Part shown: positions 34,956 through 50,325 of the stretch, one piece after another
How the letters are laid out: the number at the start of each line of letters is the position of its first letter
Numbering within the stretch: position 1 is the stretch's first letter
Source: Streptomyces humicola
GTDB taxonomy: Bacteria; Actinomycetota; Actinomycetes; Streptomycetales; Streptomycetaceae
Assembly: GCF_024436035.1 (NCBI RefSeq)
Contig: NZ_JANFNG010000001.1
Location: 637,689 to 701,688 of the forward strand
Length of the DNA stretch: 64,000 bases
Reading direction: 5' to 3'
Notes under the pieces: generated by a model
Databases searched by the model: none
Seen by the model: the letters and a program-made list of their open reading frames with translations, nothing else
Told to the model about the DNA's origin: nothing
Translations under genes and position numbers: made by a program

Positions 34956-36017
34956 ATGGACCTTCCGGTGATGCCGCCCGTGGAGCCGATGCTTGCCAAG
35001 AGCGTCCGGGAGATCCCGCCGGGCATGCAGTACGAGGCCAAGTGGGACGGCTTCCGGGCGATCGTGTTCCGGGACGGCGACGAGGTGGAGATCGGCAGCC
35101 GTACCGGCAAGCCGCTCACCCGCTACTTCCCCGAAGTGGTCGAGGCGGTGCGGGCCGAGCTGCCGCCGCGGTGCGTGATGGACGGCGAGATCGTCATCGC
35201 CCACGACGGGCGGCTGCACTTCGAGGAACTGCTGGAGCGTATACACCCGGCCGCCTCGCGGGTGCGCACCCTCGCCGGGCGCACCCCGGCGTCCCTCGTC
35301 GCCTTCGACCTGCTCGCCTCGGGAAACGACTCGCTGATGGACACGCCGCAGGCACAGCGGCGCGAGGCGCTGGTCGCCGCGCTCGCCGGGGCGGCGGCGC
35401 CGGTGCACACCGCACCGGCCACCACCGACCGGGAGGTGGCCCGCGACTGGTTCGCCCACTTCGAGGGCGCTGGGCTCGACGGTGTGGTGGCCAAGCCGCT
35501 CGACCTGCCGTACCGGCCGGGGGAGCGGGTGATGGCGAAGGTCAAGCACGAGCGCACCGCCGACTGCGTGGTCGCCGGATACCGGTTCCACAAGAGCGGC
35601 CCGGTGATCGGTTCCCTGCTGCTCGGGCTCTACGACGAGACGGGCCGGCTGCAGCACGTCGGGGTCTGCGCGTCGTTCCCGATGGCGCGCCGGCGCGCAC
35701 TCGTCGACGAGCTGGGGCCGCTGCGGATGGCCGATGCCACCGGTCATCCGTGGGCCGAGTGGGCCGACGAGGCGGCGCATGCGAACGCGCGGATGCCGGG
35801 CGGCCCGAGCCGCTGGAGCGGGGGCAAGGACCTGTCCTGGGAGCCGCTCGTCCCGGAGCGGGTGTGTGAGGTCGCCTACGACCACATGGAGGGATCCCGG
35901 TTCCGGCACACCGCGCGGTTCCGCCGCTGGCGGCCCGACCGGACGCCCGAGAGCTGCACCTACCGGCAATTGGAGGAGCCCGTCGGCTACGACTTGGCGC
36001 AGGTGCTCGGCGCCTGA
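34956..36017 (+). CDS. ATP-dependent DNA ligase (LigC/LigD ligase-type)
   Basis: A 353-residue DNA ligase. The adenylated Lys is Lys29 in YEAKWDGFRAIVFRDG (motif KxDG). Motif III is LVAFDLLASG, motif IV EGLDGVVAKPL (here EGAGLDGVVAKP), and motif V MAKVKHERTADCVVAGY. The C-terminal OB-fold follows, with the typical VCEVAYDHMEG and FRHTARFRRWRPDR. ATG 34956 was chosen because the protein begins at MPPVEPMLAKSV. It acts with the divergent polymerase in end joining or gap repair. A strong terminator lies 45 bases after the stop. Confidence 0.93.
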   Translation: MDLPVMPPVEPMLAKSVREIPPGMQYEAKWDGFRAIVFRDGDEVEIGSRTGKPLTRYFPEVVEAVRAELPPRCVMDGEIVIAHDGRLHFEELLERIHPAASRVRTLAGRTPASLVAFDLLASGNDSLMDTPQAQRREALVAALAGAAAPVHTAPATTDREVARDWFAHFEGAGLDGVVAKPLDLPYRPGERVMAKVKHERTADCVVAGYRFHKSGPVIGSLLLGLYDETGRLQHVGVCASFPMARRRALVDELGPLRMADATGHPWAEWADEAAHANARMPGGPSRWSGGKDLSWEPLVPERVCEVAYDHMEGSRFRHTARFRRWRPDRTPESCTYRQLEEPVGYDLAQVLGA

Positions 36018-36131: not shown

Positions 36132-36911
36132 TCAGCTGCTCGCCTTCCAGGTGTCGGAGAAGTCGGTTCCGTTGCTCAGCGAGGACGCGGTGGCCAAAGT
36201 GGTGCCGCCGGAGGCCATGGTGATGTTGTCCGGATTGTAGGTCCCGATGGCCTGGCCGTTGGCCTCCGCATTGGTGAAGTTCACCGTGCCGAAGTCGGTC
36301 AGCGGTAGCGGCCCGCTGGAGTCCGACGGCGCCTCGGCGATGACCTCCGCCGAGGCGAGCGAGGGATTGCTCAGCGTCTTGTTGACGGTGTGGCTCCAGC
36401 CTCTGGTGGTGTCCGACAGCACGAGCGTGAACGCGCCGTTCCCGTTGTAGGTGACGGAGGCGTTGAAGTGGTCGCCCGGCTCGACGGTGTCGCTGAAGTT
36501 GACCGGCGCCGAGGGGTACATTTCGTACCAGGAGTAGTACTGCGGGCTGCCGCCCGAGCAGTCGACCTCGGTGCCCGTCTGCTCCACGGAGTTGCTCCCG
36601 TCGCCGTCGAGGCCGACCCAGAAGCTGGAGTAGGTGTCGGTGGAGCTGCAGTTTCCGGTGGGCTCCACCCAACTGGCGGAGACACTGTTGAAGGTGGACC
36701 CGGTGGCGGCGTAACCGGACCAGTTGGAGCTGGTGCTGTTGAGGATGCGGCCGTGCGGTGCGGTCCGGTGCGCGGATATGCCCGGGCCGGAGACGGTGTC
36801 CAGTGGCGCGTCGACGACGGCGGGGCCGCCGGCTGCCACGGCCGGGCCGACGCCGGCCAGAACGGCCAGCAGGGAGGCGGATACAGCGGTGGTTCGACGT
36901 GCGATCGACAT
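36132..36911 (-). CDS. Secreted G1-family (eqolisin-like) glutamic peptidase
   Basis: A 259-residue extracellular protein. A Sec signal peptide (RRTTAVSASLLAVLAGVGPA, cleavage near AVAAGG) is followed by the G1 fold. SSNWSGYAATG is the typical opening. WVGLDGDGSNSVEQTGTEVD contains the catalytic Gln, YYSWYEMYPSAP is the hallmark substrate-cleft motif, and AEVIAEAPSDSSG carries the catalytic Glu. Eqolisins are acid peptidases first known from fungi; streptomycete homologues exist. ATG 36911 is followed by the Arg-Arg signal start, and AGGAGCAGC lies just upstream. Confidence 0.87.
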   Translation of the reverse strand: MSIARRTTAVSASLLAVLAGVGPAVAAGGPAVVDAPLDTVSGPGISAHRTAPHGRILNSTSSNWSGYAATGSTFNSVSASWVEPTGNCSSTDTYSSFWVGLDGDGSNSVEQTGTEVDCSGGSPQYYSWYEMYPSAPVNFSDTVEPGDHFNASVTYNGNGAFTLVLSDTTRGWSHTVNKTLSNPSLASAEVIAEAPSDSSGPLPLTDFGTVNFTNAEANGQAIGTYNPDNITMASGGTTLATASSLSNGTDFSDTWKASS

Positions 36912-37130
36912 GCTGCTCCTTCGTGTGGGGGGTGAGCCACCGAACTTGTCGGCGCTCCGTCAAGATTGGAATTTCCCGCCCGGAATCGACGAAGCTCCGC
37001 AACTTCTTCCGCTGCTCTTCCGCAGACCTTCACAACCTTCCGGCGAACCGGAGGCGGACGGGTAGAGGATGGCGTGAGCGAGAAGCGGCCGGCCAGGGCC
37101 GCGGAAGCCGATGAAGGGGGTCGACGACGA

Positions 37131-38627
37131 GTGACGACGCAGCCGATGGTCAGCACGCGCTCGGGGTCCGTACGCGGCATCAGCACCGGCACCGTCGCCG
37201 TGTTCAAGGGCATCCCGTACGCCCAACCACCGGTCGGTGCACGCCGTTTCGCGCCCCCGCAGCCCGCCGTGCCCTGGGACGGGATCCGCGACGCCACCGT
37301 CTACGGCCCGACCGCTCCCAAGGCCCCTTACGTCCCGCCCTACGACCAGCTCGTCCCCGAGGCCGGCACTCCCGGCGACGACTACCTCAACCTCAACATC
37401 TGGACGCCCGATCCGGCCGGCTCCGGGCTGCCGGTGATGGTCTTCATCCACGGCGGCGCGTTCACCAACGGCTCGGGCGCGGTCCCCGCCTACGACGGCA
37501 GCCGGTTCGCCCGCGACGGCGTCGTCTGCGTCACCCTCAACTACCGCCTGGGCGCCGACGGCTTCCTCGTCCTCGGCGACAACCCCGCCAACCTCGGCCT
37601 CCTCGACCAGATCGCCGCCCTCACCTGGGTTAGCGAGAACATCGCCTCCTTCGGCGGCGACCCCGGCAACGTCACCGTCTTCGGCGAGTCGGCGGGCGCC
37701 ATGAGCATTGCCGTGCTTCTCGCCATGGACGCCGCCCGGGGACTGTTCCGCCGGGCGATCCTGGAAAGCGGCGCCGGACACCACGCCCTGACCCCCGGCA
37801 CCGCCCGCCTCATCGGCACCCGGCTCGCCGAAAAGCTGGGCGTCGAACCCACACTGGCAGGGATCGCGGACGTGCCCGTCGACCGCGTCACCCGCGCACA
37901 GCAGGAGCTGCGCGCCGAGATCGTGGCCCGCCCCGACCCTGCGTTGTGGGGCCAGGCGGCGCTCAACCAGGTCCCGTTCCTCCCCGTCATCGACGGCGAG
38001 ACCCTCACCGCGCTGCCGGCCGAACGCATCGCCGCCGGAGCCGGAGCCGGTGTGGACATCCTCATCGGCCACAACACCGACGAGTTCCGCTTCTATCTCG
38101 TACCGACCGGAGCGATCGACCTGGTGGAGGAGTGGCAACTGCGCCGCTCCGCCGCCGCGTACGGGCTCCTGGTGGACGAGGCGCTCGCGGTCTACCGTGC
38201 GGGGCGGCCCGGTGCCACCCCCGGCGACCTGCTCGCCGCCGTCACCACCGACTGGTTCTTCGCCATCCCCGCCCTGCGCCTCGCCGAAGCCCACGCGGCA
38301 TGTGGGGCGGCCAGGACATACCTGTACGAATTCGCCTGGCAATCGCCCGCGTTCGACGGCCGCATCGGCGCCTGCCACGTCGCCGAGCTGGGCTTCGTCT
38401 TCGACAACCTGCACGACAAGGGCCTCGCCCCGCTCATCGGCGAGCGGCCTCCCCAGCAGCTCGCCGATACCATGCATGCCGCCTGGGTGGCCTTCGCGAC
38501 CAGCGGCGACCCCGGGTGGGCCGGATACGGCGCCGACCACCGGACCGTGATGCGCTTCGACACCGTCTCGCGGACGGTGACCGACCCCCGACCGATGGAA
38601 CGCGCCCTGTGGGAGGGACTGCGGTGA
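37131..38627 (+). CDS. Type-B carboxylesterase
   Basis: A 498-residue alpha/beta hydrolase of the carboxylesterase/para-nitrobenzyl esterase type. The nucleophile is Ser187 in FGESAGAMS, the oxyanion hole is FIHGGAFTNGSG, the acidic residue is likely in GHNTDEFRFY, and the His in GACHVAELGFVF. FKGIPYAQPPVGARRFAPPQ is the family opening. GTG 37131 follows AAGGGGG. Its stop overlaps the MBL-fold gene (GTGA), and all genes to 48326 run the same way, so it may be the first gene of the unusual cluster, releasing an ester-bound intermediate or acting in self-protection. That role is inferred. Confidence 0.9.
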   Translation: MTTQPMVSTRSGSVRGISTGTVAVFKGIPYAQPPVGARRFAPPQPAVPWDGIRDATVYGPTAPKAPYVPPYDQLVPEAGTPGDDYLNLNIWTPDPAGSGLPVMVFIHGGAFTNGSGAVPAYDGSRFARDGVVCVTLNYRLGADGFLVLGDNPANLGLLDQIAALTWVSENIASFGGDPGNVTVFGESAGAMSIAVLLAMDAARGLFRRAILESGAGHHALTPGTARLIGTRLAEKLGVEPTLAGIADVPVDRVTRAQQELRAEIVARPDPALWGQAALNQVPFLPVIDGETLTALPAERIAAGAGAGVDILIGHNTDEFRFYLVPTGAIDLVEEWQLRRSAAAYGLLVDEALAVYRAGRPGATPGDLLAAVTTDWFFAIPALRLAEAHAACGAARTYLYEFAWQSPAFDGRIGACHVAELGFVFDNLHDKGLAPLIGERPPQQLADTMHAAWVAFATSGDPGWAGYGADHRTVMRFDTVSRTVTDPRPMERALWEGLR

Positions 38628-39595
38628 CCGAGCACGCGACGACACACCTCACCCGTATCGCCGACGGCGTCCATGTGTGGGCACCCGACGGAGCGGGCAC
38701 CTGGGGCCTGGCCAACTGCGTCCTGGTCTCCTCCGGCACCCGCGCCGCGCTCGTCGACACCCCCTACACCACCGCGCTCGCCGAGCAACTGCTCACGGCC
38801 GCGCGCCGCGTGCTGCCCACCGGCGCGACGTTCGACACAGTGATCAACACGCACGCCAACGGTGATCACTGCTACTCCAACGCCTTCTTCACCGGCGCCG
38901 AGATCATCGCCACCGAGTCGTGCCGCGAGCACGCCTGCTTCGAACCCGCCCCGGACCTGCTCCACCAGCTCGTCCACGGCTCCGACCCCGGGCAGCCGCT
39001 CGGCCGCTATCTGCGGCGGCACTTCGGCCGCTACGACTACCGCGGGATACAACTCGCCCCGCCGACCCGGACGTTCACCGCCGAGCTCACCGTGCACCCG
39101 GGCGACGAGGACGAACTGCACCTGATCGAGGTCGGGCCCGCCCACACCGCCGGCGACCTGATCGTCCACCTGCCGCGGCAACGGGTGGTGTGCACCGGCG
39201 ACGTGTTCTTCGCCGGCGACCACCCTGTGCACTGGGCCGGCCCGCTGGAACGCGTCATGGACGCCTGCCGGCGCATCCTCGACCTGCGGCCGCAGACCGT
39301 CGTACCCGGCCACGGCCCGGTCGTCGGACCGGCCGCCCTGCGCGAACACCTCGACTACCTCGCCGATCTGCGCGGCCGCATCCACACACTCCACGCACGC
39401 GGCCTGGACGAGCGCAAGGCGACGTCCGAGCTGCTCCGCGAGAACCGCCACCCGCACCTGGGACTGCCGGAACGCCTGGCCATCCTCACCGCCGTCGAGT
39501 ACCGCCACCTCGGCGGCGTCACCGAGCCGCCGGACCTGCTCGCCTTCATGGCCGAGGCGGCGCGCCACGCCCAGGAGGCCGAACAGGCCCGTTAG
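38624..39595 (+). CDS. MBL-fold metallo-hydrolase
   Basis: A 323-residue metallo-beta-lactamase-fold hydrolase. The metal motif is THANGDHCYSN near residue 76 (HxNxDH, where Asn replaces the second His of HxHxDH), followed by GPAHTAGDLIVHLP, CTGDVFFAGD and VPGHGPVVG. The HxNxDH form occurs in MBL proteins acting on small esters or amides. GTG 38624 overlaps the esterase stop by four bases. The next gene follows after 97 bases. The substrate is unknown. Confidence 0.88.
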   Translation: MTEHATTHLTRIADGVHVWAPDGAGTWGLANCVLVSSGTRAALVDTPYTTALAEQLLTAARRVLPTGATFDTVINTHANGDHCYSNAFFTGAEIIATESCREHACFEPAPDLLHQLVHGSDPGQPLGRYLRRHFGRYDYRGIQLAPPTRTFTAELTVHPGDEDELHLIEVGPAHTAGDLIVHLPRQRVVCTGDVFFAGDHPVHWAGPLERVMDACRRILDLRPQTVVPGHGPVVGPAALREHLDYLADLRGRIHTLHARGLDERKATSELLRENRHPHLGLPERLAILTAVEYRHLGGVTEPPDLLAFMAEAARHAQEAEQAR

Positions 39596-39692
39596 CCCGG
39601 CAGGTCGAGCCGTCCGCGAAGCAGCCTCGAGCGGGCTTCCCACCCTGGGGGAGAGCGCAGGCCAGGTCAGGCCATGCCCCTGGGAGGTTCCG

Positions 39693-41129
39693 TTGACGCG
39701 CGTGCGAGTTGTGGACGTCCGTGTCCTGGACGACTCGGGCTCAGTGGTGTGGTCGGGCCCGGAGGAGGAGTATCCAGTCGTCGCCGCGACGCTCGACCCG
39801 GGCAACTCAGCGCTGCGGATGTCGGCGGGCGAGGCCGGAACGGGTGACGGCGGCGCGGACGGCAGCGTGACCCGCTGCCGCCGCAATGATGTCATGACGA
39901 CCGCCGAGACCCTCGGCCTGGTCAGCCGCCGCGGCGTGCCCCGCGGCTTCCTGACGACGCTGCCGCACGGCGCCGTCTTCGAGGCGGGCGTCGAGGCGTT
40001 CAACAACGAGCACCTGGCCGCCCTCGACGTCAACGCCGTCCACTTCCCGCTGGTCTTCGACAACTCCGCGCCCGCCACCGCCGAGCTGACGGCCCAGTAC
40101 GCCGCACAGAACCGGATGTTCGCCCTCGCCGGCCACGACGACCGGCTGCGGCTCGCTTACGCGGCCGACCCCAACCTGTTCGCCTGGCTCGCCGACAGTG
40201 TCCTCGACACGGCCCGGCTTCCGTACGCCATGTACAGCCCGCAGCCTGTCTTCCGCAACTTCCGCTCCGGCGAGGTGAACATCCAGCGCCGCCTGCAGTT
40301 CACCGTCCCCGACGTGCACATCTGGACCCGTCCGGCGGACGCCGCCGAGCAGTACCTGCACGCGCTCGCTCTCGCCGCCGAATCGACCTCCTTCTGGTTC
40401 GGGGGCGACTACCTGCACGTGCTGGACTCCGTCGCCGGCACCCCCCACGACGACGACGGGTTCTACCGCCAGGTCGCCAAGGCCGCCCGGGGCCTGACCG
40501 TGGTCCGAAGGCTGAGCGCCCACCCGAAGTACTACGCGCAGAAGACCGCGATCCTGGTGTCGGCCGGCTATGACAACGTGATGCTGCACAACCTGCAGCT
40601 GGACGAGGTGAACGCCGAACGCTTCAACATCCGCACCGACGACGGCGGCCACCCCGTCGTCATCCACGCCTGCGTGGCGATGGGCGGCTCCCGGATGCTG
40701 CCGCTGGTCATCGGACGCGGACTGGCCGGCCTCACGCCGCAGCTGCTTCCGCCCGAACTCGCCGCCATCCAGCTGCAGTTCCTCCCGCTGCACGAACGCC
40801 ACACCGACCGGGCCAACGCTCTCGCCGAGCCACTGCGCGAGCAGGGCGTGCGTACCGCCGTCGACTGCGACTTCCACCGCTCCACGGGGGCCCGGATCGC
40901 CCGCCTGCGCCGTGCCTGGCAGCCACTGGTCTGCGTCGTCGGCGACCGTGAACTAACCGATGCGCCGCGCATCCAGACCTCCGCCGGGCGGTCGGTCCAC
41001 ACGGACTACCACGCCTTCCTCGCCGACCGGATGCCGCGCTGGCAGCGGTGCCGTCCGGCCACCCCGAACCGGGCCGCCGCACCCCCCGTCGTCAAGACCC
41101 TGCGCCCGCGGAACAGGGGTGCGCGGTGA
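39693..41129 (+). CDS. Threonyl-tRNA-synthetase-like protein (class II aaRS paralogue)
   Basis: A 478-residue paralogue of the ThrRS catalytic plus anticodon-binding domains, without the TGS and editing domains of the ~650-residue enzyme. The motif 2 region is PVFRNFRSGEVNIQRRLQF (ThrRS: YRYExSG..RVRGF) and a motif 3-like stretch is HACVAMGGSRMLPLVIG. The C-terminal ~90 residues follow the HGTP anticodon fold (IQLQFLPLHERHTDRANALA, then LREQGVRTAVDCDFHRSTGARI). Motif 2 lacks the usual RxE and the RGFTQDDAH tail reads LQFTVPDVHIW, so canonical threonylation is doubtful. TTG 39693 follows GGGAGG. It probably activates an amino acid for the cluster; a resistance ThrRS is less likely. The first ~65 residues are unfamiliar. 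Confidence 0.82.
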   Translation: MTRVRVVDVRVLDDSGSVVWSGPEEEYPVVAATLDPGNSALRMSAGEAGTGDGGADGSVTRCRRNDVMTTAETLGLVSRRGVPRGFLTTLPHGAVFEAGVEAFNNEHLAALDVNAVHFPLVFDNSAPATAELTAQYAAQNRMFALAGHDDRLRLAYAADPNLFAWLADSVLDTARLPYAMYSPQPVFRNFRSGEVNIQRRLQFTVPDVHIWTRPADAAEQYLHALALAAESTSFWFGGDYLHVLDSVAGTPHDDDGFYRQVAKAARGLTVVRRLSAHPKYYAQKTAILVSAGYDNVMLHNLQLDEVNAERFNIRTDDGGHPVVIHACVAMGGSRMLPLVIGRGLAGLTPQLLPPELAAIQLQFLPLHERHTDRANALAEPLREQGVRTAVDCDFHRSTGARIARLRRAWQPLVCVVGDRELTDAPRIQTSAGRSVHTDYHAFLADRMPRWQRCRPATPNRAAAPPVVKTLRPRNRGAR

Positions 41130-43267
41130 GCGCGTGGCAGGGCGCCCTCGCCGCGCTGCCGGCCGGCGCGCGCGTCGTGCTCCGCTGCGCAGGCGGCCCG
41201 GCATCGGCGGATGCCCTCGGCACCGCGATGGACCTGGGCCTGGTCTGCGTACCGCTCGCACCGCGCAGCACCGACCGTGAACTCGCCTCCGTCGCCGACC
41301 GGTCAGGTGCCTCCCTCCTCCTCGACGGACCAGGGCTCACCCCCCGCCCGCTGCCCGGCGACCCGGCGCACCCGGAGGCCGACGGTCTCGCCCTGCTGCT
41401 GTTCACCTCCGGATCCACCGGGCAGCCCAAGGGCGTCAAGCTCGGCCGCGACGCCGTGCTCGGCAACGCCCTCAAGACCGCCGAGCTGCACCGCTTCTCC
41501 CCGGACCGGCCGCACGGCACGTGCCTGCCCCTCCACCACTGCAACGCCATCGTGCTGTCGCTCATCGGCACCCGGGCCACGGGCACCCCGCTGATCCTCA
41601 GCCACCCCTTCGACCCGCACCGTTACCTCAAGGAGCTGGACACCCACCGCGCCCGCACCGCCTCCATCGCCCCCGCGCTGCTGCACGAGCTGGTCGAGGC
41701 CCGTCCGCCGTGGCCCGAGACGCTGGACTACCTCGTCACCGCGTCCGCCCCGCTCACCAGCGACCTGGCGCGCCGCTTCCACCGCCACTACGGGCCCCGG
41801 CTGCGCCAGGGGTACGGCCTGACCGAGGCCGTCAACTTCAGCTTCACCATGCCGCGGCTGGACGAGGCCGACTTCCGTGACCAGTACCTGGACCGCAGGC
41901 CGCCCGTCGGCCTCCCCCTGCCGGGCACCGAACTGCACCTGGAGGACGGCGAGGTGTGGATCCGCACCCCCGACAGGATGCGCGGCTACTGGGACGACCC
42001 GCAGGCCACCGCGCGCGTCCTCACCGACGACGGCTGGCTGCGCACCGGCGACCTGGGTGAACTGCGCGACGGCTTCCTGGTGCTCAGCGGCCGCGCGGAC
42101 GAACGCGTCAACCGCGGCGGCGAGAAATACCACCCCGTCGACATCGAACAGCGCTGGCGGGAGCGCGGGCTTACGGGGAAGGCGGCCGCCGTCGCCGTGC
42201 AGGAGCCGGTGTACGGGCAGGACTTCGGCCTGGTCGCCCCGGGCGCCTCCGCCGAACGGCTGCGCGCCGTGTACGAGGGCGGCTTCCCGCGCCCGCTGGC
42301 CGTCGCCACCGGCGGCTATCTCGCCACCGGAACCGGCAAGCCGCAGCGCACCGCCATGGGCCGCGGCCTCGCCGCGCTGCGCGACAGCCCACAACGCTAC
42401 GACGACCTCCTGCGCTACGCGGCCGGTGCCGCCCGCGCCATGCTCGCCTCCGGTGTCCGGCCTGCCACCGCACAGGCCGCCTGTCTGTACCGGCAGTCCC
42501 TGGCGCTGGCGCAGGCCGCGCCCGGCGACACCACCGGCCATGGCACCGGCACCGCCACGAGCGGGAGCGCACCTCGTACCGCCGCGCACGACGCCCTCGA
42601 CGCGCTGGTGGAGGCATGGCCGCAGCTGGCCGCGGGGGCCCTCGCAGGCGACGAGGTGATGCAGCGTCACCGAGGCCTGTGGAAGCGGCTGATGTGCGAA
42701 TGGCCGATGGGCCGTTACGCGGAACTCGTGGAGCGGGTGCTCGACGCGGGCGGGCTGCTGTCGGGCCGGGTTCTGGAGGTGGGATCGGGCGTGGGCAACA
42801 CGACCGCCCGCATCGCCGAACGGGTCGGCGGCGAGTTCGTCTGGTCCGACCGCGTCCCCCAGCTGGTGGCCCGGGGCGGATGGCCAGGACGCGGCATCGT
42901 CCTCGACCTCGACCACGAACCCCCCTCCGGCCTGGGCGGGTTCGACACCGTCGTGGCCACCAACGTCGTGCACTGCGTGGCCGACAAGCCCGCCGCGCTG
43001 CGGAACCTGTACGGCCTGCTGAGACCCGGCGGCCGGCTGGTGCTCGCGGAAGGCACGAGCCCCACCGCGCCCGACGGGACCCCGTGGGCGCTCGACCCGC
43101 TCTTCTGCCTCTTCGACGGCTGGTGGGACCGCGGTGGCTTCCGCAGCCGCTGGGAGTGGCTCGCCCTCTTCGAAGCGGCAGGCCTGCGCGACCTGGGATT
43201 CTCCGCACTCCGCGCCGGGCCGCACGACCTGGGCGGCGTCGTATGGGGCAGCCGGCCCTCCGGCTGA
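41126..43267 (+). CDS. AMP-dependent acyl/aryl ligase fused to a SAM methyltransferase
   Basis: A 713-residue two-domain enzyme. The N-terminal ~450 residues form an ANL adenylating enzyme: LLLFTSGSTGQPKGVKLG (A3) near 92-108, QGYGLTEAVNF (A5), RTGDLGEL (A7), SGRADERVNRGGEKYHPVDI (A8) and GTGKPQRTAMG with the late catalytic Lys. The first ~70 residues of a usual ANL N-domain are shortened. Residues ~480-713 are a class I methyltransferase with the SAM loop VLEVGSGVGNTT and TNVVHCVADKPAALRNLYGL. No carrier domain is visible between. GTG 41126 overlaps the preceding stop (GTGA). Confidence 0.88.
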   Translation: MSAWQGALAALPAGARVVLRCAGGPASADALGTAMDLGLVCVPLAPRSTDRELASVADRSGASLLLDGPGLTPRPLPGDPAHPEADGLALLLFTSGSTGQPKGVKLGRDAVLGNALKTAELHRFSPDRPHGTCLPLHHCNAIVLSLIGTRATGTPLILSHPFDPHRYLKELDTHRARTASIAPALLHELVEARPPWPETLDYLVTASAPLTSDLARRFHRHYGPRLRQGYGLTEAVNFSFTMPRLDEADFRDQYLDRRPPVGLPLPGTELHLEDGEVWIRTPDRMRGYWDDPQATARVLTDDGWLRTGDLGELRDGFLVLSGRADERVNRGGEKYHPVDIEQRWRERGLTGKAAAVAVQEPVYGQDFGLVAPGASAERLRAVYEGGFPRPLAVATGGYLATGTGKPQRTAMGRGLAALRDSPQRYDDLLRYAAGAARAMLASGVRPATAQAACLYRQSLALAQAAPGDTTGHGTGTATSGSAPRTAAHDALDALVEAWPQLAAGALAGDEVMQRHRGLWKRLMCEWPMGRYAELVERVLDAGGLLSGRVLEVGSGVGNTTARIAERVGGEFVWSDRVPQLVARGGWPGRGIVLDLDHEPPSGLGGFDTVVATNVVHCVADKPAALRNLYGLLRPGGRLVLAEGTSPTAPDGTPWALDPLFCLFDGWWDRGGFRSRWEWLALFEAAGLRDLGFSALRAGPHDLGGVVWGSRPSG

Positions 43268-43360
43268 GCACGACCGCGGGCCGACGCCCGCATACTCCGG
43301 CGGCACCGGACCCCACGGGCCGCGCCACACCGAGTGCGACATCGAGGAAGGACGAACGAC

Positions 43361-43936
43361 ATGACGAACGTCATGCCACAGGCCGTCGGGAACGAGCTCG
43401 CCGAACTGACCATCGTCGACTGGGCGAAGAGCTTCATCGAGCCCGACTCGACGCTGCTCCTCGTCGACCACGGGGAACGACCGGCCAACGTGCACGGCGC
43501 GGACGCCACAGGGCAGGCGCTGGTCTCCAACGGCGCCCTCGGCGCGGACGTGCTCCGGCTGCCCGCCGGCGCCGGCTTCTCCCCGCACACCCACCCCGGC
43601 CACCACATCCTGATCGTCGTCGGCGGTGAGGGCACCATCACCTACGACGGGCGCATCCACCACACCCGCGCCGGCCAGGTCTACCTCGTCGAGGGTGAAG
43701 TGCCGCACGCGGTCGGCGCCATCACCGACCACGTGATCCTCGCCGTGGGCTCGCCGCACAAGGCCATCGACGCCGAGGACCGGATGGCTCCCGTGCCCTA
43801 CGAGGAGGTCATCGCCCCGGACGGCGACCTCACCTGCCTGATCTGCGACGTCTCCGCTTTCGCGCCGCACCGGCTGCACACGTCGGGGTGCCCGCACTGT
43901 CCGTGCCGCGACTGCGTCACCGGGAGCGCGCGGTGA
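43361..43936 (+). CDS. Cupin protein with Cys-rich C-terminus
   Basis: A 191-residue cupin. Metal ligands are visible in SPHTHPGHHILIVVGGEGTI (motif 1) and YLVEGEVPHAV (motif 2). The C-terminus has a Cys/His cluster, CLICDVSAFAPHRLHTSGCP followed by HCPCRDC, which looks like an added zinc-binding finger. Such tails are unusual on small cupins. GGAAGGA lies eight bases before ATG 43361. It overlaps the aldehyde dehydrogenase start by four bases. The role could be isomerase, oxygenase or sensor. Confidence 0.82.
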   Translation: MTNVMPQAVGNELAELTIVDWAKSFIEPDSTLLLVDHGERPANVHGADATGQALVSNGALGADVLRLPAGAGFSPHTHPGHHILIVVGGEGTITYDGRIHHTRAGQVYLVEGEVPHAVGAITDHVILAVGSPHKAIDAEDRMAPVPYEEVIAPDGDLTCLICDVSAFAPHRLHTSGCPHCPCRDCVTGSAR

Positions 43937-45321
43937 CCACACAGGCGCCCGGCGACCCGGCGGAGGCCCTGCTGCTGCGCGACCCGCGCACCGGACGGGT
44001 CCGCGGCCGGTCCCCGAACGGCCGTGCCCCGCAGGTCGCCGCCACAGTGGTGGCGGCCCGCCGGGCGTCCGCCGCGTGGCGGGCCCGCACCCCCCGCGAA
44101 CGCGCCGACCGGCTGCAGGGGCTGGCGGACGCCCTCGACGGGCACGCCGGCGCCTACATCGCCCGCGAGCGGGCCGGCACCGGCAAGCCGGAGGCCGAGA
44201 TCGCCCATGAGGTCGCCGAGGCGGCCGACCTGTTCCGCTTCTACGCCGGGGCCGCGCGCGCCGGCACCGCCCCGGCCGCGGGCGGACTGCTGCCCGGCCA
44301 CGAGAGTTGGGTGCGCTGGGAACCGTACGGCACCGTCGCCGTGATCGTGCCCTGGAACTACCCGCTGATGATGGCCGCCTGGCGGTGTGCCCCCGCACTC
44401 GCCGCAGGCAACAGCGTCGTCGTCAAACCGGCCCAGACCACCCCCGACTCGGCGGTCCTGCTCGCCGAGCACGCCCAGGAGGCCCTGGGGGAGGGGGTGC
44501 TGCAGTGCCTGCCGGGAGACAGGGAGACCGGCCGCCTGCTGGTGGACAGCGCCGTCGACATGATCGCCTTCACCGGCAGCGCTCGGGCCGGCGCCCAGGT
44601 CGCCGCACGCGCCGGAACCCGCCACACCAGCCTCGAACTCGGCGGCAACAGCCCCGTCGTCGTGCTGCCGGACGCGCCCGAGAACACCTGGGCCGACCTC
44701 GCCGCCGCCTGCACCTACAACGCCGGCCAGAGCTGCGCAGCGCCCGCCCGCGTGATCACCCTGGCCGGCCACTACCACGACGCCGTGGACGCGCTCGGCG
44801 AGGCCATGGCCGCGCGCCGCGCCGGGCGGGAGTTCGGCCCCCTCAACAACGCCGACCAGGCGGCCCGTTACGACCGTATCGTGGCAGCCTCCGGCGCCGG
44901 CCGCACCGAGACGGCTCCCCCCGCCACGGCCCCCGGCGAGGAGAACGGCTACTGGCGGGGTGCCACCGTCCTCGCCGACCTGCCCGAGGACAGTCCCGCG
45001 CTCGCCGAGGAGGTCTTCGGCCCGCTGCTGACGGTCCAACAAGCCAAGGACGAGGAGCACGCGGTGCAGCTCGCCGGCTCGGTGGAGCAGGCCCTGGCCG
45101 CGAGCGTGTGGACCGCAGACCTGGACCGGGGCCTCGCCCTTGCCCGCCGCCTGGACGCCGGAGAGGTGTGGCTCAACTGCCACCTCGCCCAGACCGCAGA
45201 GCTTCCGCACGGCGGCCGCGGCGCCTCCGGCCAGGGCACCGACCTGAGCATCCTGGCGCTCCGCGACTACCGGCGCCCCAAGACGATCACGGCCCGCCTG
45301 CGGTGGCCCTCTACGCCATGA
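43933..45321 (+). CDS. NAD(P)-dependent aldehyde dehydrogenase
   Basis: A 462-residue ALDH. The cofactor and active-site motifs are VIVPWNYPLMMAAWRCAPAL, VVVKPAQTTPDSA, FTGSARAGAQVA, LELGGNSPVVV with the general-base Glu, YNAGQSCAAPARVI with the catalytic Cys, and EEVFGPLLTVQ. It is most like aminobutyraldehyde/betaine-aldehyde-type ALDHs in general form. It would oxidise a cluster intermediate to the acid. GTG 43933 is coupled to the cupin stop. The protein is slightly shorter than typical (~480), mainly at the N-terminus. Confidence 0.9.
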   Translation: MTTQAPGDPAEALLLRDPRTGRVRGRSPNGRAPQVAATVVAARRASAAWRARTPRERADRLQGLADALDGHAGAYIARERAGTGKPEAEIAHEVAEAADLFRFYAGAARAGTAPAAGGLLPGHESWVRWEPYGTVAVIVPWNYPLMMAAWRCAPALAAGNSVVVKPAQTTPDSAVLLAEHAQEALGEGVLQCLPGDRETGRLLVDSAVDMIAFTGSARAGAQVAARAGTRHTSLELGGNSPVVVLPDAPENTWADLAAACTYNAGQSCAAPARVITLAGHYHDAVDALGEAMAARRAGREFGPLNNADQAARYDRIVAASGAGRTETAPPATAPGEENGYWRGATVLADLPEDSPALAEEVFGPLLTVQQAKDEEHAVQLAGSVEQALAASVWTADLDRGLALARRLDAGEVWLNCHLAQTAELPHGGRGASGQGTDLSILALRDYRRPKTITARLRWPSTP

Positions 45322-45345
45322 CCCGTACGACGAAGGACGACCCCC

Positions 45346-46587
45346 ATGAGAATCGGCATCGTTGACGGCTTCTCGACCGCCCGGTTCCTGGTCGAGGAGC
45401 TGAGGCGGCGCGGAGCATCCTGCATCCACATCCGCAGCCAGAAGAACCCGCCCAAGGTGTACGCCCGCGCCTTCAAGGCCGCCGCCTACACCTACGACCT
45501 GGGCTGGTCGTCGGCGGTGCTGCAGGAGACCGCCACCAAGCTCGCCGAGTTGTCGGTGGACCGGGTCGTAGCCGGCACCGAGTCCGGCGTGGTCCTCGCC
45601 GATCAGCTCAACCACCTCCTCGAGCTGCCCGGCAACCGCATCGCCCTGGCCCACGCCCGGCGCGTCAAGGCTGCCATGGCCCGCGCGCTGCGCGCCGCCG
45701 GTCTCGCCACCGCCGAGGACATCTCCGCGGCCACCCCGCAGGAAGCGGTGGCCTGGTTCACCAGCCGCTCCGAACGTCCGGTCGTGGTCAAGCCGCAGTC
45801 GAGTGCCGGCACCGACAACGTACGGATCTGCCGGACGGCCACCGAGGTGGCCGCCGCCTGCCAGGCCGTGCTCGACGAGCCGAACTTCTTCGGCGAGCCC
45901 AACCGCACCGCGCTCGTGCAGGAGTACCTCGACGGCGAGGAGTACTACGTCAACACCGTGTCCCTGGGCGGCGTCCACAAGGTCGCCGAGATCTGGCGCT
46001 CGGTGCGCCGCACCGGCCCCGACGGTGCCCCGCTGTACGACTACCAGGAGCCCGTCCCCGTCGACGATCCCGTCGCCGTCGCAGCCGCCCCGTACATCAA
46101 GGATGTCCTGACCGCTCTCGGCATCGCCAACGGCGCCGCCCACAGCGAACTGCGCGTCACCGAACGAGGTCCCGTCCTCCTCGAGACCGGCGCTCGGCTC
46201 GGCGGCGGCGTGCTGCCCCGCATCTCGCGCGACTACGCCGGTGTCTCCCACGTCCACCTGCTCGCCGACTCCCTCACCGACCCGGACGCGTTCGACGCCT
46301 TCGACGACACCGCCGTCACCTGGTCGAAGAACATCCGCTACGTCTCGCTCATCAGCCACCACCCGGGCACCGCAGCCGCCGCCACGTGGCAGGACACCAT
46401 GCGCTCCCTGACCACCTTCGACGGTCTCATCAGCCGGATCTCCGCCGGCGGCGCGGTGCCCCGCACCATCGACCTCGCCTCCTCCCCGGGCGTGGTCTAC
46501 CTGGTCGCCGACTCCGCAGGACCCGTCGAGGACGACTACGCGCACATCCGCACCCTGGAGCGCGACAAGGGGCTGTACCTGTCATGA
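45346..46587 (+). CDS. ATP-grasp amide/peptide ligase
   Basis: A 413-residue ATP-grasp enzyme of the carboxylate-amine ligase kind, resembling L-amino-acid (dipeptide) ligases. The ATP-binding Lys and glycine loop are in RPVVVKPQSSAGTDNVRIC, the second loop is VQEYLDGEEYYVNTVSLGG, and the metal-binding block is AHSELRVTERGPVLLETGAR followed by LGGGVLPRI. The C-terminal part is family-like (GVVYLVADS). It would join an activated carboxylate to an amino group via acyl-phosphate. ATG 45346 lies 24 bases after the ALDH stop; the stop overlaps the transporter start (ATGA). Confidence 0.9.
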   Translation: MRIGIVDGFSTARFLVEELRRRGASCIHIRSQKNPPKVYARAFKAAAYTYDLGWSSAVLQETATKLAELSVDRVVAGTESGVVLADQLNHLLELPGNRIALAHARRVKAAMARALRAAGLATAEDISAATPQEAVAWFTSRSERPVVVKPQSSAGTDNVRICRTATEVAAACQAVLDEPNFFGEPNRTALVQEYLDGEEYYVNTVSLGGVHKVAEIWRSVRRTGPDGAPLYDYQEPVPVDDPVAVAAAPYIKDVLTALGIANGAAHSELRVTERGPVLLETGARLGGGVLPRISRDYAGVSHVHLLADSLTDPDAFDAFDDTAVTWSKNIRYVSLISHHPGTAAAATWQDTMRSLTTFDGLISRISAGGAVPRTIDLASSPGVVYLVADSAGPVEDDYAHIRTLERDKGLYLS

Positions 46588-48326
46588 GCCTCCTCAGCCG
46601 GTTCAGCACGATGCCGCCCGCCGGGCCGGGCCGGGCGTTCGCGGTGGTGTCGCTGCTGGACTCCATCGGCACCGGGCTCTACCTCGCCGGCGCCACGGTG
46701 TACTTCGTACGCGGCGTCGGCCTGACCGCCACTCAACTGGGCATCGGGCTCGCCGTGGCCGGCTGCGCCGGCTTCCTCACCACCGTGCCCATCGGGCTGC
46801 TGGGCGACCGCTGCGGCGCCCGCCGGGTCCTCATCGGCCTGCAGCTGTGGCTCGCCGTCCAGTTCACCCTGCTCGCCTACGTGCACGGACCGGTCGCCTT
46901 CACGGCCGTGTGCTCCCTACTGGCCGTCGCCGAGCGTTCCGCCCCGCCCATGATCCAGGCCGTGGTGGCCGATCTGATGCGCGGCAGCGCCCAGGTCAAG
47001 GCCATGGCCGCGATCCGCACTGTGCGCAACGCCGGGTACGCCTGCGGCGCGCTGCTTGCCACGGCACTCCTCGCCGGCCAGGCGCTGTGGATGCTGCGGG
47101 CGATGCTGCTCGGCAACGCCGTCTCGTTCGTCGTCGCCGCGCTGCTGCTGCGGCGTCTGCCCGGAGCCACGCCGCGGCCCGCGACTGCGGCTCCGCGCCG
47201 CACCTGGCTGCCCCGTGGCCTGGGCGACGGCCGCTTCCTCGTCGTCACCGGGCTCAACGCCGTCCTGGTGCTGCACACCACGCTGCTGTCAGTGGGGCTG
47301 CCGCTGTGGATCGTCCAGCACACGCGCGCCCCGCTGGTGCTCGTACCGCTGCTGTTCGCGCTCAACACCGTGCTCGCGGTGGGCCTGCAGGTGTGGCTCG
47401 CCCGCGGCGCCGAGCAGCGGGGCCGTACCCGCCGCGTGATGCGCTGGGCGGCGGCCTCGCTCACCGGGTGCTGTGTGCTGCTGGCCGTCACCGGGCACCT
47501 GGGGCGGGCGGGCGCGGTCGTCCTGCTGGTAGCCGCCATGGTGCTGCTCACCGGCGGCGAGCTGTGGCAGTCGATCGCCGCCTGGGGGCTGCCGGTCGAC
47601 CACGCTCCGCAGGGCAGGCGGGCCGAGTACCTGGCGGTGTTCAACCTGGGTGTCACCGCGCAGAGCATCCTGGGCCCGCTGCTGATCACCGCCCTGCTGC
47701 AGTTGAAGGACGCCGGCTGGCTGGTGCTCGCCGCACTGTTCACCGTGTGCGGGCTGCTCGCCGCTCCCGTGCTGCGCTCCCTGGAACGGCACCGTGGCCC
47801 CGCCGAACCGCCTGCTCCGGCAGCCGTGCCTGCACCGGCGCCGGCTGAGCCGCAGGTGCCGCTGCCGCACCTGCCCGATCACCCCGCGTGCTTCGCCTGC
47901 GGCACCCGGGCCTCGTCCGGGCTGCGGCTGCGCACCACGCATGCCGACGAACATGGCATCACCGCCGAACTGACGTTGCATCAGGACCATCAGGGGGCGC
48001 CCGGCATCGCCCACGGCGGCATCGTCGCCGCGGTCCTCGACGAGGCGACCAGCCTCGCCGTGTGGCGGGCCCACCGGCGACCGAACGTGACCGGCCGGCT
48101 TGAGGTGGAGTACCTGGCTCCGGTGCGGCTCAGCATCCCCGTCCACGTACGGGCGAGCTGCACTAGCACCCAGGGCCGGCGCATCCACGTCGCCGCCGAG
48201 CTCCGGGTGGGCGCGCCGGACGCGCCGGTCGCCGCGCGGGCATCGGCCGTCTTCGTCATGGTGCCCGCCGAACACTTCCTCGTCCGCGCCGGGACCACGG
48301 AGGACGAGGATGCCGCCGTGCGGTAG
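46584..48326 (+). CDS. MFS exporter fused to a hotdog-fold thioesterase
   Basis: A 580-residue fusion. Residues ~1-400 are a 12-helix major facilitator with GLLGDRCGARRVLIGLQLWL after helix 2. After an Ala/Pro linker (PAPAAVPAPAPAEPQVP), residues ~425-565 are a hotdog domain of the PaaI/YbgC type: CFACGTRASSGLRLRTTHAD, HQDHQGAPGIAHGGIVAAVL (catalytic region HGG) and LEVEYLAPVRLSIPVHVRAS. Such a fusion could couple release of a thioester product to export. The domain order and linker argue against a sequencing artefact, since the frame and codon bias are continuous. Confidence 0.87.
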   Translation: MSLLSRFSTMPPAGPGRAFAVVSLLDSIGTGLYLAGATVYFVRGVGLTATQLGIGLAVAGCAGFLTTVPIGLLGDRCGARRVLIGLQLWLAVQFTLLAYVHGPVAFTAVCSLLAVAERSAPPMIQAVVADLMRGSAQVKAMAAIRTVRNAGYACGALLATALLAGQALWMLRAMLLGNAVSFVVAALLLRRLPGATPRPATAAPRRTWLPRGLGDGRFLVVTGLNAVLVLHTTLLSVGLPLWIVQHTRAPLVLVPLLFALNTVLAVGLQVWLARGAEQRGRTRRVMRWAAASLTGCCVLLAVTGHLGRAGAVVLLVAAMVLLTGGELWQSIAAWGLPVDHAPQGRRAEYLAVFNLGVTAQSILGPLLITALLQLKDAGWLVLAALFTVCGLLAAPVLRSLERHRGPAEPPAPAAVPAPAPAEPQVPLPHLPDHPACFACGTRASSGLRLRTTHADEHGITAELTLHQDHQGAPGIAHGGIVAAVLDEATSLAVWRAHRRPNVTGRLEVEYLAPVRLSIPVHVRASCTSTQGRRIHVAAELRVGAPDAPVAARASAVFVMVPAEHFLVRAGTTEDEDAAVR

Positions 48327-48345
48327 TGCCGTCGCCGATGCCCGA

Positions 48346-48972
48346 TCAGGATGTGGTGTCGACGACGATCTCCTCGCCGTCCCGCAGCGTCCGGTGCGCA
48401 ACTCCGTCGCCGGCCAGCCGGCGCACCACCAGTTCGATGCGCTCGCTCTCCGGGTGCGCGGAGCGGTGGTGCGGCACGATCATGTAGTCGAGCAGCCCGA
48501 GCCCGTCCCACCGCGGTTCGGCGCCGAACCGCTTGCGAACCTGCTCCGGATCGTCCACCAGTTCCAGACCGCGCAGGCTGGGTGCCAGCACGCAGCAGCC
48601 GGCGCTGTAGCCGGAGTACACCAGCGCATCGGAAGCCATCGCCTCGGCGAGCACCGCTTCCGCGCCGCTGCGGGCCATCGCGTGACGCAGCACGAAGACG
48701 TTTCCGCCGCGGACCCACATCATCCGGTAGTGCTGCAGCCGGTCCGCCAGCCGTTCGGGCCGCCCGGCGTAGTCGCCGAGGTCGAGCACGTCGGAATCGA
48801 TGCCCAGCCCGCGCAGCGCCGCCACCTCGCGGGCGATGCCCTCCTCGCGGACCGGCTCCGGCTCGGCGTCAAGGGCGTTGGGCACGACGGCGGCCGGCCC
48901 ACCGTCCGGCAGCAGCTCCAGCAGGCGTTCCGGGCGCAGACCAAGCCGCCACGACGAGAGATACATGCGCAC
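48346..48972 (-). CDS. Peptidase S51 family protein (dipeptidase E-like)
   Basis: A 208-residue S51-type serine peptidase. The nucleophile elbow is VYSGYSAGCCVLAP, the oxyanion glycines are VRGGNVFVLRHAM, and the catalytic His is probably in IVPHHRSAHPESERI. Family members cleave Asp-X dipeptides or cyanophycin-type amides. It converges on the transporter-thioesterase gene (19-base gap) and diverges from the MHS transporter (24-base gap). GTG 48972 or ATG 48966 may be used. A role in processing or recycling a peptide-like cluster product is conceivable but not shown. Confidence 0.85.
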   Translation of the reverse strand: MRMYLSSWRLGLRPERLLELLPDGGPAAVVPNALDAEPEPVREEGIAREVAALRGLGIDSDVLDLGDYAGRPERLADRLQHYRMMWVRGGNVFVLRHAMARSGAEAVLAEAMASDALVYSGYSAGCCVLAPSLRGLELVDDPEQVRKRFGAEPRWDGLGLLDYMIVPHHRSAHPESERIELVVRRLAGDGVAHRTLRDGEEIVVDTTS

Positions 48973-48996
48973 GCAAACGCCCCTAGGGAGGATTGA

Positions 48997-50325
48997 GTGG
49001 ACTCCACCGCCAGACGCGTCGCCATTGCCGGCATGATCGGCAGTGCCGTCGAGTGGTACGACTTCTACCTCTGCGGCACCGCCGCAGCCTTGGTGTTCAA
49101 TCAGCTATTTTACTCACAACTCCCTGCAGCGGCCGCCGTCGTGGCCTCCTTCGGCACGTACGCGGTGGGGTTCGTCGCCCGGCCGCTGGGCGCCGCCGTC
49201 GCCGGTCATCTCGGGGACCGGGTGGGCCGCAAGCCCGTCCTCGTCGTGACGCTCTTCCTCATGGGACTCGGCTCCGCTCTCGTCGGTGTCCTGCCGACGT
49301 ACCGTCAGGCCGGGCTGGCCGCTCCGGCACTGCTGGTGGCGCTCCGTCTGGTGCAGGGGTTCGCGGTCGGCGGGGAGCAGGGCGGCGCCTCCGTGCTCAC
49401 GGTGGAGATTGCCGGGGCGGGGCGGCGCGGCCTGTGGGGGAGCGTGGTGAACTCCGGCTCCTCGCTCGGCCTGTTGCTCTCCTCCGGCGGGTTCGCTCTC
49501 ACGCAGGCGCTGCTCGATCGGCATGCGTTCCTGGTCTGGGGATGGCGGGTGCTCTTCCTCGCGGGCCTCGTCCTGATCGCGGTCGGCCTCGTGATCCGCT
49601 CCACCGTGCCGGAACCGCCGCTCTACCGGGCCGCCGAGCGGACGGCGCGGCCGCTGCGGACCGTCGTACGCCACCACCGTGCGGCGCTGCTGCAGGCCGT
49701 GGGGATGCGCATCTCCCAGACCGCGGCCTCCTATTTCTACACCGTCTTCGTGCTGTACTACCTGACGCTGCGGCGGGTACCCGGCGCAGCGACCGTCGGC
49801 GTCCTGGCCGTCAGCGTCAGTGCCGCCCTGAGCCTGCTGACCACCCCGGCCTGGGGAGCGCTGTCGGACCGTGTGGGCCGGCGGCCGGTCTTCCTCTTCG
49901 GCGCACTCGGCAGCGCGCTGTACATCGCACCGTTCTTCCTGCTGGTCGAGGCGCGTTCGCCGGCGGTGATCGTGCTGGGCGTGGTCGTCGGCGTGAACGT
50001 CTTCCACGACGCGATGTTCGGGCCGCTGGCAGCGTGGTTCAGCGAGCTGTTCCGTACCGACGTCCGCTTCAGCGGCGCAGCCCTCGGCTACCAGGCCGGT
50101 GCCGTACTCGGCGGTGGCCTGCTGCCGCTGCTCGCCGCGTCCTTGTGCCTGGCGGCGGGGGGACAACCGTGGCTGGTGTGCGGCTACTTCCTGGTGCTGT
50201 CCGCGCTCACCGTGACAGCGGCGGTGCGCGCACCCGAGACGCTGGGGCAGAGCCTGGAGGACCCGCGGGCCCCGGCGGGCAGCCCCCTGCAGGCCGCCGA
50301 CGTCACCGCCGGGGCGCTCACCTAG
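48997..50325 (+). CDS. MHS-family MFS transporter
   Basis: A 442-residue metabolite:H+ symporter. Hallmarks are AGMIGSAVEWYDFYLCGTAA in helix 1, FGTYAVGFVARPLGAAVAGH then LGDRVGRKPVLV, and LRLVQGFAVGGEQGGASVLT. Such proteins import citrate, ketoglutarate, shikimate, betaine or related acids. GTG 48997 follows GGGAGG. Codons at about 49097-49127 (QLFYSQLP region) are unusually AT-rich for this genome. It overlaps the convergent phosphoesterase gene by 8 bases. Confidence 0.9.
   Translation: MDSTARRVAIAGMIGSAVEWYDFYLCGTAAALVFNQLFYSQLPAAAAVVASFGTYAVGFVARPLGAAVAGHLGDRVGRKPVLVVTLFLMGLGSALVGVLPTYRQAGLAAPALLVALRLVQGFAVGGEQGGASVLTVEIAGAGRRGLWGSVVNSGSSLGLLLSSGGFALTQALLDRHAFLVWGWRVLFLAGLVLIAVGLVIRSTVPEPPLYRAAERTARPLRTVVRHHRAALLQAVGMRISQTAASYFYTVFVLYYLTLRRVPGAATVGVLAVSVSAALSLLTTPAWGALSDRVGRRPVFLFGALGSALYIAPFFLLVEARSPAVIVLGVVVGVNVFHDAMFGPLAAWFSELFRTDVRFSGAALGYQAGAVLGGGLLPLLAASLCLAAGGQPWLVCGYFLVLSALTVTAAVRAPETLGQSLEDPRAPAGSPLQAADVTAGALT

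Follow-up and report, generated by a model that had tools for sequence, protein, structure and literature searches.

A candidate aminoacyl-sulfonamide biosynthetic cluster with a truncated ThrRS-like protein in Streptomyces humicola

Natural sulfonamides are rare, and aminoacyl sulfonamides can imitate aminoacyl-adenylates. The abstract of a 2021 review cites eight highly potent sulfonamide or sulfamate examples from actinomycetes, and the same review reports that SB-203207 inhibits the isoleucyl-tRNA synthetases (IleRSs) of several organisms, rat liver included, at less than 2 nM (PMC9113183). Here, we analysed a 64,000-nucleotide stretch of Streptomyces humicola DNA (the window; assembly GCF_024436035.1, contig NZ_JANFNG010000001.1, positions 637,689 to 701,688 of the forward strand), taken from a high-GC genome of 7.07 Mb in 78 contigs. 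It appears fairly likely from sequence comparison that a block of genes at window positions 39693–50325 is an aminoacyl-sulfonamide biosynthetic cluster operating by the full scheme proposed below.

The closest described systems acylate a sulfamoyl nitrogen with the help of proteins resembling aminoacyl-tRNA synthetases (aaRSs). According to the passages of PMC6331615 on which we draw, the cupin SbzM and the dehydrogenase SbzJ of the altemicidin/SB-203207 pathway convert L-cysteine into 2-sulfamoylacetate, with formation of the N–S bond, and the IleRS-like SbzA transfers isoleucine from tRNA to the sulfonamide nitrogen in SB-203208 biosynthesis. The same passages assign sbz letters to a methyltransferase (D), carrier proteins (G and K), a GNAT (I), an aldehyde dehydrogenase (ALDH; J), an adenylate-forming enzyme (L) and the cupin (M). 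AcmF, a truncated protein resembling alanyl-tRNA synthetase (AlaRS) that is devoid of most ATP-binding and alanine-activation residues, uses Ala-tRNA to attach alanine to dealanylascamycin at its sulfamate nitrogen (PMC12945691, in part). The abstract of that 2026 review names AcmF and SbzA together with GNAT-fold, cyclodipeptide synthase (CDPS) and LanB-like enzymes; in its text, 'ThrRS' (threonyl-tRNA synthetase) does not occur, and the place found for 'threonyl' is a reference title. A review of aaRS duplication (PMC9437257) also names SbzA, its available passages mentioning no biosynthetic ThrRS copy. SbzM homologues have been placed in sbz-like, polyketide synthase (PKS)/AMP-ligase, nonribosomal peptide synthetase (NRPS) and ATP-grasp clusters, described as having products that are not known (PMC9113183, in part).

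Gene order and the cupin–aldehyde dehydrogenase pair

The original prediction described eight genes of the + strand at 37131–48326, sharing one direction and including four 4-base overlaps, as an operon devoid of PKS, NRPS condensation and carrier domains. This layout is confirmed (Table 1), and the domain labels agree with Pfam and NCBIfam, with tRNA-synt_2b scoring under its threshold. A Pfam scan (E up to 1) of the ten proteins encoded at 37131–50325 detected no condensation, carrier or ketosynthase domain. Octapeptide patterns of the cupin were scanned over a collection of 84,980 species, a search that detects close relatives only, and gave six cupin-anchored loci, five in named Streptomyces and one in a metagenome-assembled actinomycete. 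Nine window proteins were compared with these loci by tblastn; L015 (9.6 kb) and L012 (16.8 kb) are short, and the metagenome contig L015 was judged by tblastn alone (open reading frame calling there gave two genes). The acyl-adenylate (ANL) ligase-methyltransferase is present in all six loci, the hot-dog thioesterase and the second major facilitator superfamily (MFS) transporter in four each (one of the latter at 42% identity), the ALDH in three and the ThrRS-like protein in two; an ATP-grasp orthologue (62–66% identity) occurs in two, and a third locus holds a 29% relative. Streptomyces barringtoniae (L010) and S. longisporoflavus (L012) retain the window's gene order, i.e., ThrRS-like, ANL-methyltransferase, cupin, ALDH, ATP-grasp, MFS, thioesterase and second MFS, with protein identities of about 60–81% across the three genomes (local alignments), which argues that the block is more than a chance arrangement. 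Co-occurrence in other genomes, chosen beforehand as the point on which the prediction could fail, is thus found, and a true biosynthetic operon with amide-forming enzymes, a methyltransferase and transporters is supported. Since this order is shared with L010 and L012, and neither the esterase nor the metallo-beta-lactamase-fold (MBL) gene has a counterpart in any of the six loci, the comparison places the conserved cluster at about 39693–50325. The limits proposed originally were therefore wrong at both ends: the esterase and MBL genes are probably neighbours outside the cluster, which extends to the second MFS gene.

The cupin and ALDH genes overlap, and their products are, by sequence comparison, relatives of SbzM and SbzJ. 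Relatedness to SbzM was judged through loci of sbz gene order and not against the SbzM sequence itself. L049 encodes a methyltransferase, a luciferase-like protein, an acyl carrier protein (ACP), an epimerase-like protein, a 188-aa protein, an ALDH, a further ACP, an ANL, a cupin, SIS and BtpA-like proteins and an aminotransferase; the 188-aa protein, at the GNAT position, has no Pfam match. Because this order agrees with the lettering published for sbzD, G, I, J, K, L and M, L049 is taken as an sbz-type locus together with L050 and L051, which read alike by gene order, families having been searched for L049 only. The window cupin is 44% identical to the cupins of the sbz-type loci L026 and L048–L051, and 67% identical over the matched stretch of PDB 9ug7, a code for which the literature search found no paper. 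Its H76, H78, H82 and H116, which we take to be metal ligands as in cupins generally, are shared by all 21 sequences compared, a shorter and more distant outgroup among them. A structure prediction of the cupin from its single sequence (predicted local distance difference test, pLDDT, 40.7) was used for no claim; VIA-align with this low-confidence model returned generic cupins (best Z 6.5), and 9ug7 was not among the best 50 rows.

Cupin relatives occur in 7 of 394 sampled genomes of the family (E up to 1e-12, the window's own included) and, with a 12-row profile, in 14 of 392 sampled genomes of one genus (E up to 1e-15). Nineteen distinct neighbourhoods were read, L042 and L045 being repeats of L012 and L014, and the weak matches L039–L041, as well as L022, being left out. 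In 13 of the 19, the cupin has an ALDH gene at a distance of about three genes or less. The window ALDH is 69–72% identical to those of L010–L012 and 57–62% identical to the sbz-type and other cupin-linked ALDHs, as against 35–42% in the same alignment for 11 paralogues from four genomes (up to 45% and up to 47% in other comparisons). In a midpoint-rooted tree with these paralogues, 14 cupin-linked ALDHs form one clade (support 0.917), the ALDHs of the window, L010–L012 and the sbz-type loci group together at support 1.0, and the motif YNAGQSC is retained in 14 of 14. Judged by its sequence, the ALDH is a stronger sign of a sulfonamide module than the cupin. This module was missed in the original prediction, for which a match of the set to a described pathway was the second point of failure; such a match exists in part, since the pair corresponds to SbzM/SbzJ and the set as a whole remains unmatched. 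Because the pair matches SbzM/SbzJ, the aaRS-like protein beside it can be interpreted by the precedent of SbzA and AcmF.

Table 1. Genes of the block and its neighbours, in window coordinates
Feature	Position	Strand	Support
ThrRS-like protein, 478 aa, proposed aminoacyl-tRNA:sulfonamide aminoacyltransferase	39693..41129	+	HGTP_anticodon 33.1 bits
ANL (acyl-adenylate) ligase-methyltransferase fusion	41126..43267	+	AMP-binding 138 bits, Methyltransf_12 48.9 bits
Cupin, SbzM-like; proposed L-cysteine to 2-sulfamoylacetaldehyde	43361..43936	+	44% to sbz-type cupins
Aldehyde dehydrogenase, SbzJ-like; proposed oxidation to 2-sulfamoylacetate	43933..45321	+	sbz-type ALDH clade
ATP-grasp ligase, L-amino-acid-ligase/dapdiamide-synthase kind	45346..46587	+	PRK07206 343 bits (cut-off 302)
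MFS transporter-4HBT thioesterase fusion	46584..48326	+	MFS_1 96.0 bits, 4HBT 44.1 bits
Second MFS transporter, metabolite:H+ symporter type	48997..50325	+	TIGR00883 363 bits (cut-off 443)
Peptidase S51-like gene, within block in window genome	48346..48972	-	Peptidase_S51 66.3 bits
Carboxylesterase, adjoins block	37131..38627	+	COesterase 337.5 bits
Metallo-beta-lactamase-fold hydrolase, adjoins block	38624..39595	+	Lactamase_B 78.5 bits
4-base overlaps	esterase/MBL 38624; ThrRS-like/ANL 41126; cupin/ALDH 43933; ATP-grasp/MFS 46584	+	

The ThrRS-like protein, the accompanying enzymes and a proposed pathway

The ThrRS-like gene likely starts at TTG 39693, with GGGAGG ahead of it, the alternatives being GTG 39702, GTG 39711 and ATG 39894. 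The last of these had been chosen originally; an N-terminal extension of about 60–70 residues, conserved in the orthologues of L010 and L012 (67–69% identity), moves the start upstream to the vicinity of 39693. The protein's similarity to ThrRS covers the catalytic core and, in part, the anticodon-binding domain. Its tRNA-synt_2b score is 22.0 bits (cut-off 29.3), its best NCBIfam model, PRK03991, gives 114.9 bits (cut-off 484), and 86.6 bits against the equivalog TIGR00418 (cut-off 383.65) set it apart from canonical ThrRS. By hhalign, residues 74–423 align with residues 251–603 of E. coli ThrS at 18% identity, nothing aligns with ThrS residues 1–250, and the TGS and editing regions are lacking. 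In all three ThrRS-like proteins, the equivalents of ThrS R363, R375, D383, H385, Y462, K465, Q484 and D486 are retained, while Phe replaces E365, presumably the motif 2 glutamate, and Asp replaces C334, which we take to be the zinc-ligand position. In all three genomes where the gene was found, it belongs to the block that also encodes the SbzM-like cupin, which places an aaRS-like protein in what would be a sulfonamide cluster. Searches of the family (E up to 1e-15) and of the class (E up to 1e-25), each in a sample of 394 genomes, no more than four candidates per genome being scored among the matches listed, found the gene in the window's own genome only, and plasmids gave no match.

Truncation and a partial loss of activation residues are AcmF-like, several core residues being retained and motif 3 being ambiguous. 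These marks, together with class II membership, a partly retained tRNA-binding domain and a location in a probable sulfamoyl-forming cluster, suggest a tRNA-dependent enzyme. Because activation residues are changed, a charged-tRNA donor would, by analogy, be likelier than activation of an amino acid by the protein itself, and the aminoacyl-adenylate chemistry assigned to it in the original prediction has become doubtful.

The nearest solved relatives of the ANL part are coenzyme A (CoA) ligases, and the two nearest solved methyltransferases, 5mpt and 5thy, are the citrinin and CurJ C-methyltransferases of PKS type (5.9e-9 and 1.9e-7), which makes the O- or N-methyl group proposed earlier doubtful. 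The fusion accompanies the cupin in four cluster contexts, i.e., window type, L011, L015 and NRPS type. In 12 of 12 ANL-methyltransferases and sbz-type ANLs, YGxTE is followed by [VM]NFS, a motif found in none of the 21 parsed ANLs of the window's genome, where at least three motif calls look spurious (50 matches, 30 fetched, 21 parsed for the motif count and 12 used in the tree); this common motif hints that both groups act on the same acid. In the NRPS-type fusions (L013:8011-9978, L014:8017-9972, L046 and L047), the S-adenosylmethionine-binding stretch is gone and the C-terminal end is retained, so that the methyltransferase half there would be a decaying or repurposed domain.

The ATP-grasp protein is a member of PRK07206 with similarity to an L-amino acid ligase of solved structure (PDB 30vh, E 3.1e-65), and it is therefore likely to make an amide at a carboxylate; with 211.8 bits against the DdaF model NF041595 (cut-off 840), it is not assigned as dapdiamide A synthase. 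The MFS-thioesterase described originally is indeed one fused gene in the window, but two separate genes in L010 and L012; the thioesterase part is also found in L011 and L015. The second MFS protein is 58–73% identical to its counterparts in L010, L011 and L012 and 42% identical to that in L013. Given that the block has no carrier protein and that the hot-dog thioesterase is present in four of the six cupin loci, activation as a CoA thioester, alpha-C-methylation and release by the thioesterase would form a coherent, if tentative, route.

In the scheme that we infer for the reactions in the host, the amino acid, the methyl position, the product and its target, the first two steps follow from homology to enzymes of demonstrated reactions: the cupin would oxidise, decarboxylate and rearrange L-cysteine to 2-sulfamoylacetaldehyde, which the ALDH would convert into 2-sulfamoylacetate. 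More weakly, the ANL domain is proposed to activate this acid, probably as a CoA thioester given the lack of a carrier protein; the methyltransferase fused to it would methylate the activated acid, perhaps at its acidic alpha-carbon, the hot-dog thioesterase would free the methylated acid, and the ATP-grasp ligase would couple its carboxylate with an amine or an amino acid. Acylation of the sulfonamide nitrogen is proposed by analogy with SbzA and AcmF: a charged tRNA would be the donor from which the truncated ThrRS-like enzyme transfers an amino acid (perhaps threonine). The resulting N-aminoacyl sulfonamide would mimic an aminoacyl-adenylate and may inhibit an aaRS, and the two MFS proteins would carry the product or a precursor across the membrane. 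We propose only tentatively the more specific version, in which a ThrRS-derived class II transferase represents a third independent aaRS recruitment, C-methylation occurs on the thioester and the product is a threonyl-adenylate mimic that inhibits ThrRS. The output could be a natural antibiotic blocking protein synthesis. The block is short (seven genes here, eight in relatives) and free of carrier proteins and megasynthases, which should make expression easy. It would test whether this type of acylation has drawn on aaRSs at least three times in nature, and would show whether a C-methylated sulfamoyl unit is what the ANL-methyltransferase fusion, which accompanies the cupin in several cluster types, produces.

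Weighing the alternatives

Several observations count against this scheme. The cupin shares only 44% identity with the sbz-type cupins through which its kinship to SbzM was judged. No IleRS-sized gene corresponding to SbzA lies in the roughly 20 kb read of L049–L051. The NRPS-type loci L013, L014, L046 and L047 have no cupin-linked ALDH, the best ALDH in three NRPS-type genomes is at 47%, and the fate of the aldehyde may vary. The ANL-methyltransferases and sbz-type ANLs form no exclusive, supported clade (0.426), and the third-nearest solved methyltransferase is MitM (4e-6). Motif 3 of the ThrRS-like protein aligns in two ways, with the equivalents of H511 and R520 retained by HMMER and not by MAFFT or hhalign; a structure prediction from three sequences (mean pLDDT 31.8) was used for no claim, and both the amino acid and the tRNA dependence are proposed by analogy.

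The alternative that survives best, which we nevertheless regard as unlikely, is that of a sulfonamide cluster in which the ThrRS-like protein works independently of tRNA, using ATP to activate an amino acid that it then ligates itself. The residues kept in all three proteins (R363, R375, D383, Y462, K465, Q484 and D486 of E. coli ThrS) speak for it, as do the H511 and R520 equivalents of the HMMER alignments. The loss in all three of E365 and C334, whose roles are presumed, argues against it, and a partial anticodon-binding domain would be needless to an enzyme working without tRNA. Moreover, both precedents on sulfamoyl nitrogens, as far as the parts of the sources used here describe them, depend on charged tRNA (PMC6331615, PMC12945691).

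There is a small chance that the cupin yields some other cysteine-derived compound, e.g., an enamine sulfonate or a thiol oxide, and that the product is no sulfonamide. An identity of 44% leaves room for change, the C-terminal Cys motif of the window cupin is fuller than that of the sbz-type cupin of L026, and the NRPS-type relatives have no ALDH; this reading must, however, contend with the invariant histidines in 21 of 21 cupins and with an ALDH of the sbz clade near the cupin in 13 of the 19 loci.

Slighter still is the probability that the ThrRS-like protein is a self-resistance ThrRS without a biosynthetic role. Producers can carry a spare aaRS, such as AcmD in ascamycin (PMC12945691, in part), and a search of four genomes revealed a second, shorter true ThrRS in that of the window (contig C20, 456.8 bits). 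Yet the ThrRS-like protein, with 18% aligned identity to a real ThrRS, 86.6 bits against an equivalog cut-off of 383.65 and nothing aligning with ThrS residues 1–250, hardly fits such a role, and the spare true ThrRS lies elsewhere. The latter, of about 435 aa, scores over the family cut-off in the window's genome (G000:C20:22065-23261, L057) and in G492 (G492:C1:788713-789867, L058), its match to the model being confined to the core and the C-terminal part; the G354 counterpart is below the cut-off. As no ThrRS-like match was found in G492 or G354, the second ThrRS is not tied to the cluster.

Finally, that unrelated neighbours without a joint product make up the block is very improbable, for although streptomycete genes are often packed and co-directional, three genomes preserve the order and others preserve subsets of it. 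Hydrazine synthetase, a cupin joined to a protein resembling methionyl-tRNA synthetase, was considered as a parent and rejected, because the aaRS-like protein here resembles ThrRS and the cupin groups with those of sbz-type loci. The aminoacyl-sulfonamide cluster thus remains the preferred reading.

Surroundings of the block and comparison with known systems

No gene was called in L010, L011 or L012 at the position of the minus-strand S51 peptidase gene, whose membership of the cluster is doubtful; it may have been inserted late, or may encode a hydrolase for local immunity. Ahead of the cluster, L010:5163-6020 and L012:5084-5869 hold a divergent gene (41% identity to each other), weakly JmjC-like in L010 (JmjC_2 22.3 bits, cut-off 22), and of no family match in L012; a search of the window's genome for it (E up to 1e-5) gave no match. 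Within 36800–51000, patterns resembling promoters and terminators were no more frequent than in shuffled sequence, and Rfam at gathering thresholds gave no match in the window, with no T-box seen. DNA comparison with the congener G001 gave nine scattered matches of 68–84% on nine different contigs, the best within the esterase, from which no empty insertion site could be read. Elsewhere in the window, a type III PKS-like gene with chalcone/stilbene synthase domains, separate from the cluster, lies at 26524–27594, and a divergent pair resembling, by sequence reading only, a LigD polymerase-domain protein and an ATP-dependent DNA ligase lies at 33879–36017.

The survey also brought other cupin clusters to light. 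L023, L024, L025, L043 and L044 share another SbzM-type cluster with an ATP-grasp protein (LAL_C2), Rieske and 4Fe-4S ferredoxins, a cupin, a DUF3050/haem-oxygenase-like protein, an ALDH and a protein of about 600–640 aa without a Pfam match (380 aa called in L043), families having been tested for L024 only; four of the five add a methyltransferase and a second ATP-grasp protein. This is perhaps an oxygenase-bearing sulfonamide pathway. L011:5284-14215 (Streptomyces sp. ODS25) is a hybrid, which combines a Pfam-less 543-aa protein and Rieske- and ferredoxin-like genes, as in the L023 type, with a window-type ANL-methyltransferase, cupin, ALDH, thioesterase and MFS; its 20 kb hold no ThrRS-like gene and no close ATP-grasp orthologue. 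A shorter, distant cupin (L027:9793-10242; 41% over 143 aligned residues) sits among PP-loop/sulfurtransferase-like and glutamine-amidotransferase-like genes, named from sequence reading only, and perhaps belongs to another cysteine-derived pathway.

The original claim that no characterised cluster has this composition holds in the literature searched, which leaves most subscription journals outside; no later work on the same composition was found there either. Of the known systems, the sbz cluster of Streptomyces sp. NCIMB 40513 is similar in its SbzM-like cupin, SbzJ-like ALDH, adenylate-forming enzyme and aaRS-like protein; as far as the passages used describe it, it differs in using carrier proteins and GNAT transferases, in its 6-azatetrahydroindane core and in its aaRS-like protein, SbzA, which is of class I and IleRS-like (PMC6331615). 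In the window block, there is no carrier protein, an ATP-grasp ligase is present, the ANL ligase is fused to a methyltransferase and the aaRS-like protein is of class II and ThrRS-like. SbzA is described as retaining HIGH and KMSKS with slight changes, unlike the truncated AcmF. Like the window protein, the latter is aaRS-like and of class II, is truncated, has altered activation residues and is presumed to act on a sulfamoyl nitrogen; it differs in being AlaRS-like and in using a nucleoside sulfamate made by another route (PMC12945691, in part). DdaF and the L-amino acid ligases share with the window protein the ATP-grasp family and a likely carboxylate–amine ligation, DdaF itself being set apart by the equivalog score given above. 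The ATP-grasp clusters with an SbzM homologue in Fig. 7D of PMC9113183, judged from legend and text and not from the figure, share the SbzM homologue beside an ATP-grasp protein; that text names no ThrRS-like or ANL-methyltransferase gene. L023–L025, L043 and L044 may be the clusters shown there, and the window block may belong to the same fourth group. Altogether, as far as these sources go, the general kind, an SbzM homologue beside an ATP-grasp protein, is already known, and the composition found in the window is a new variant of it.

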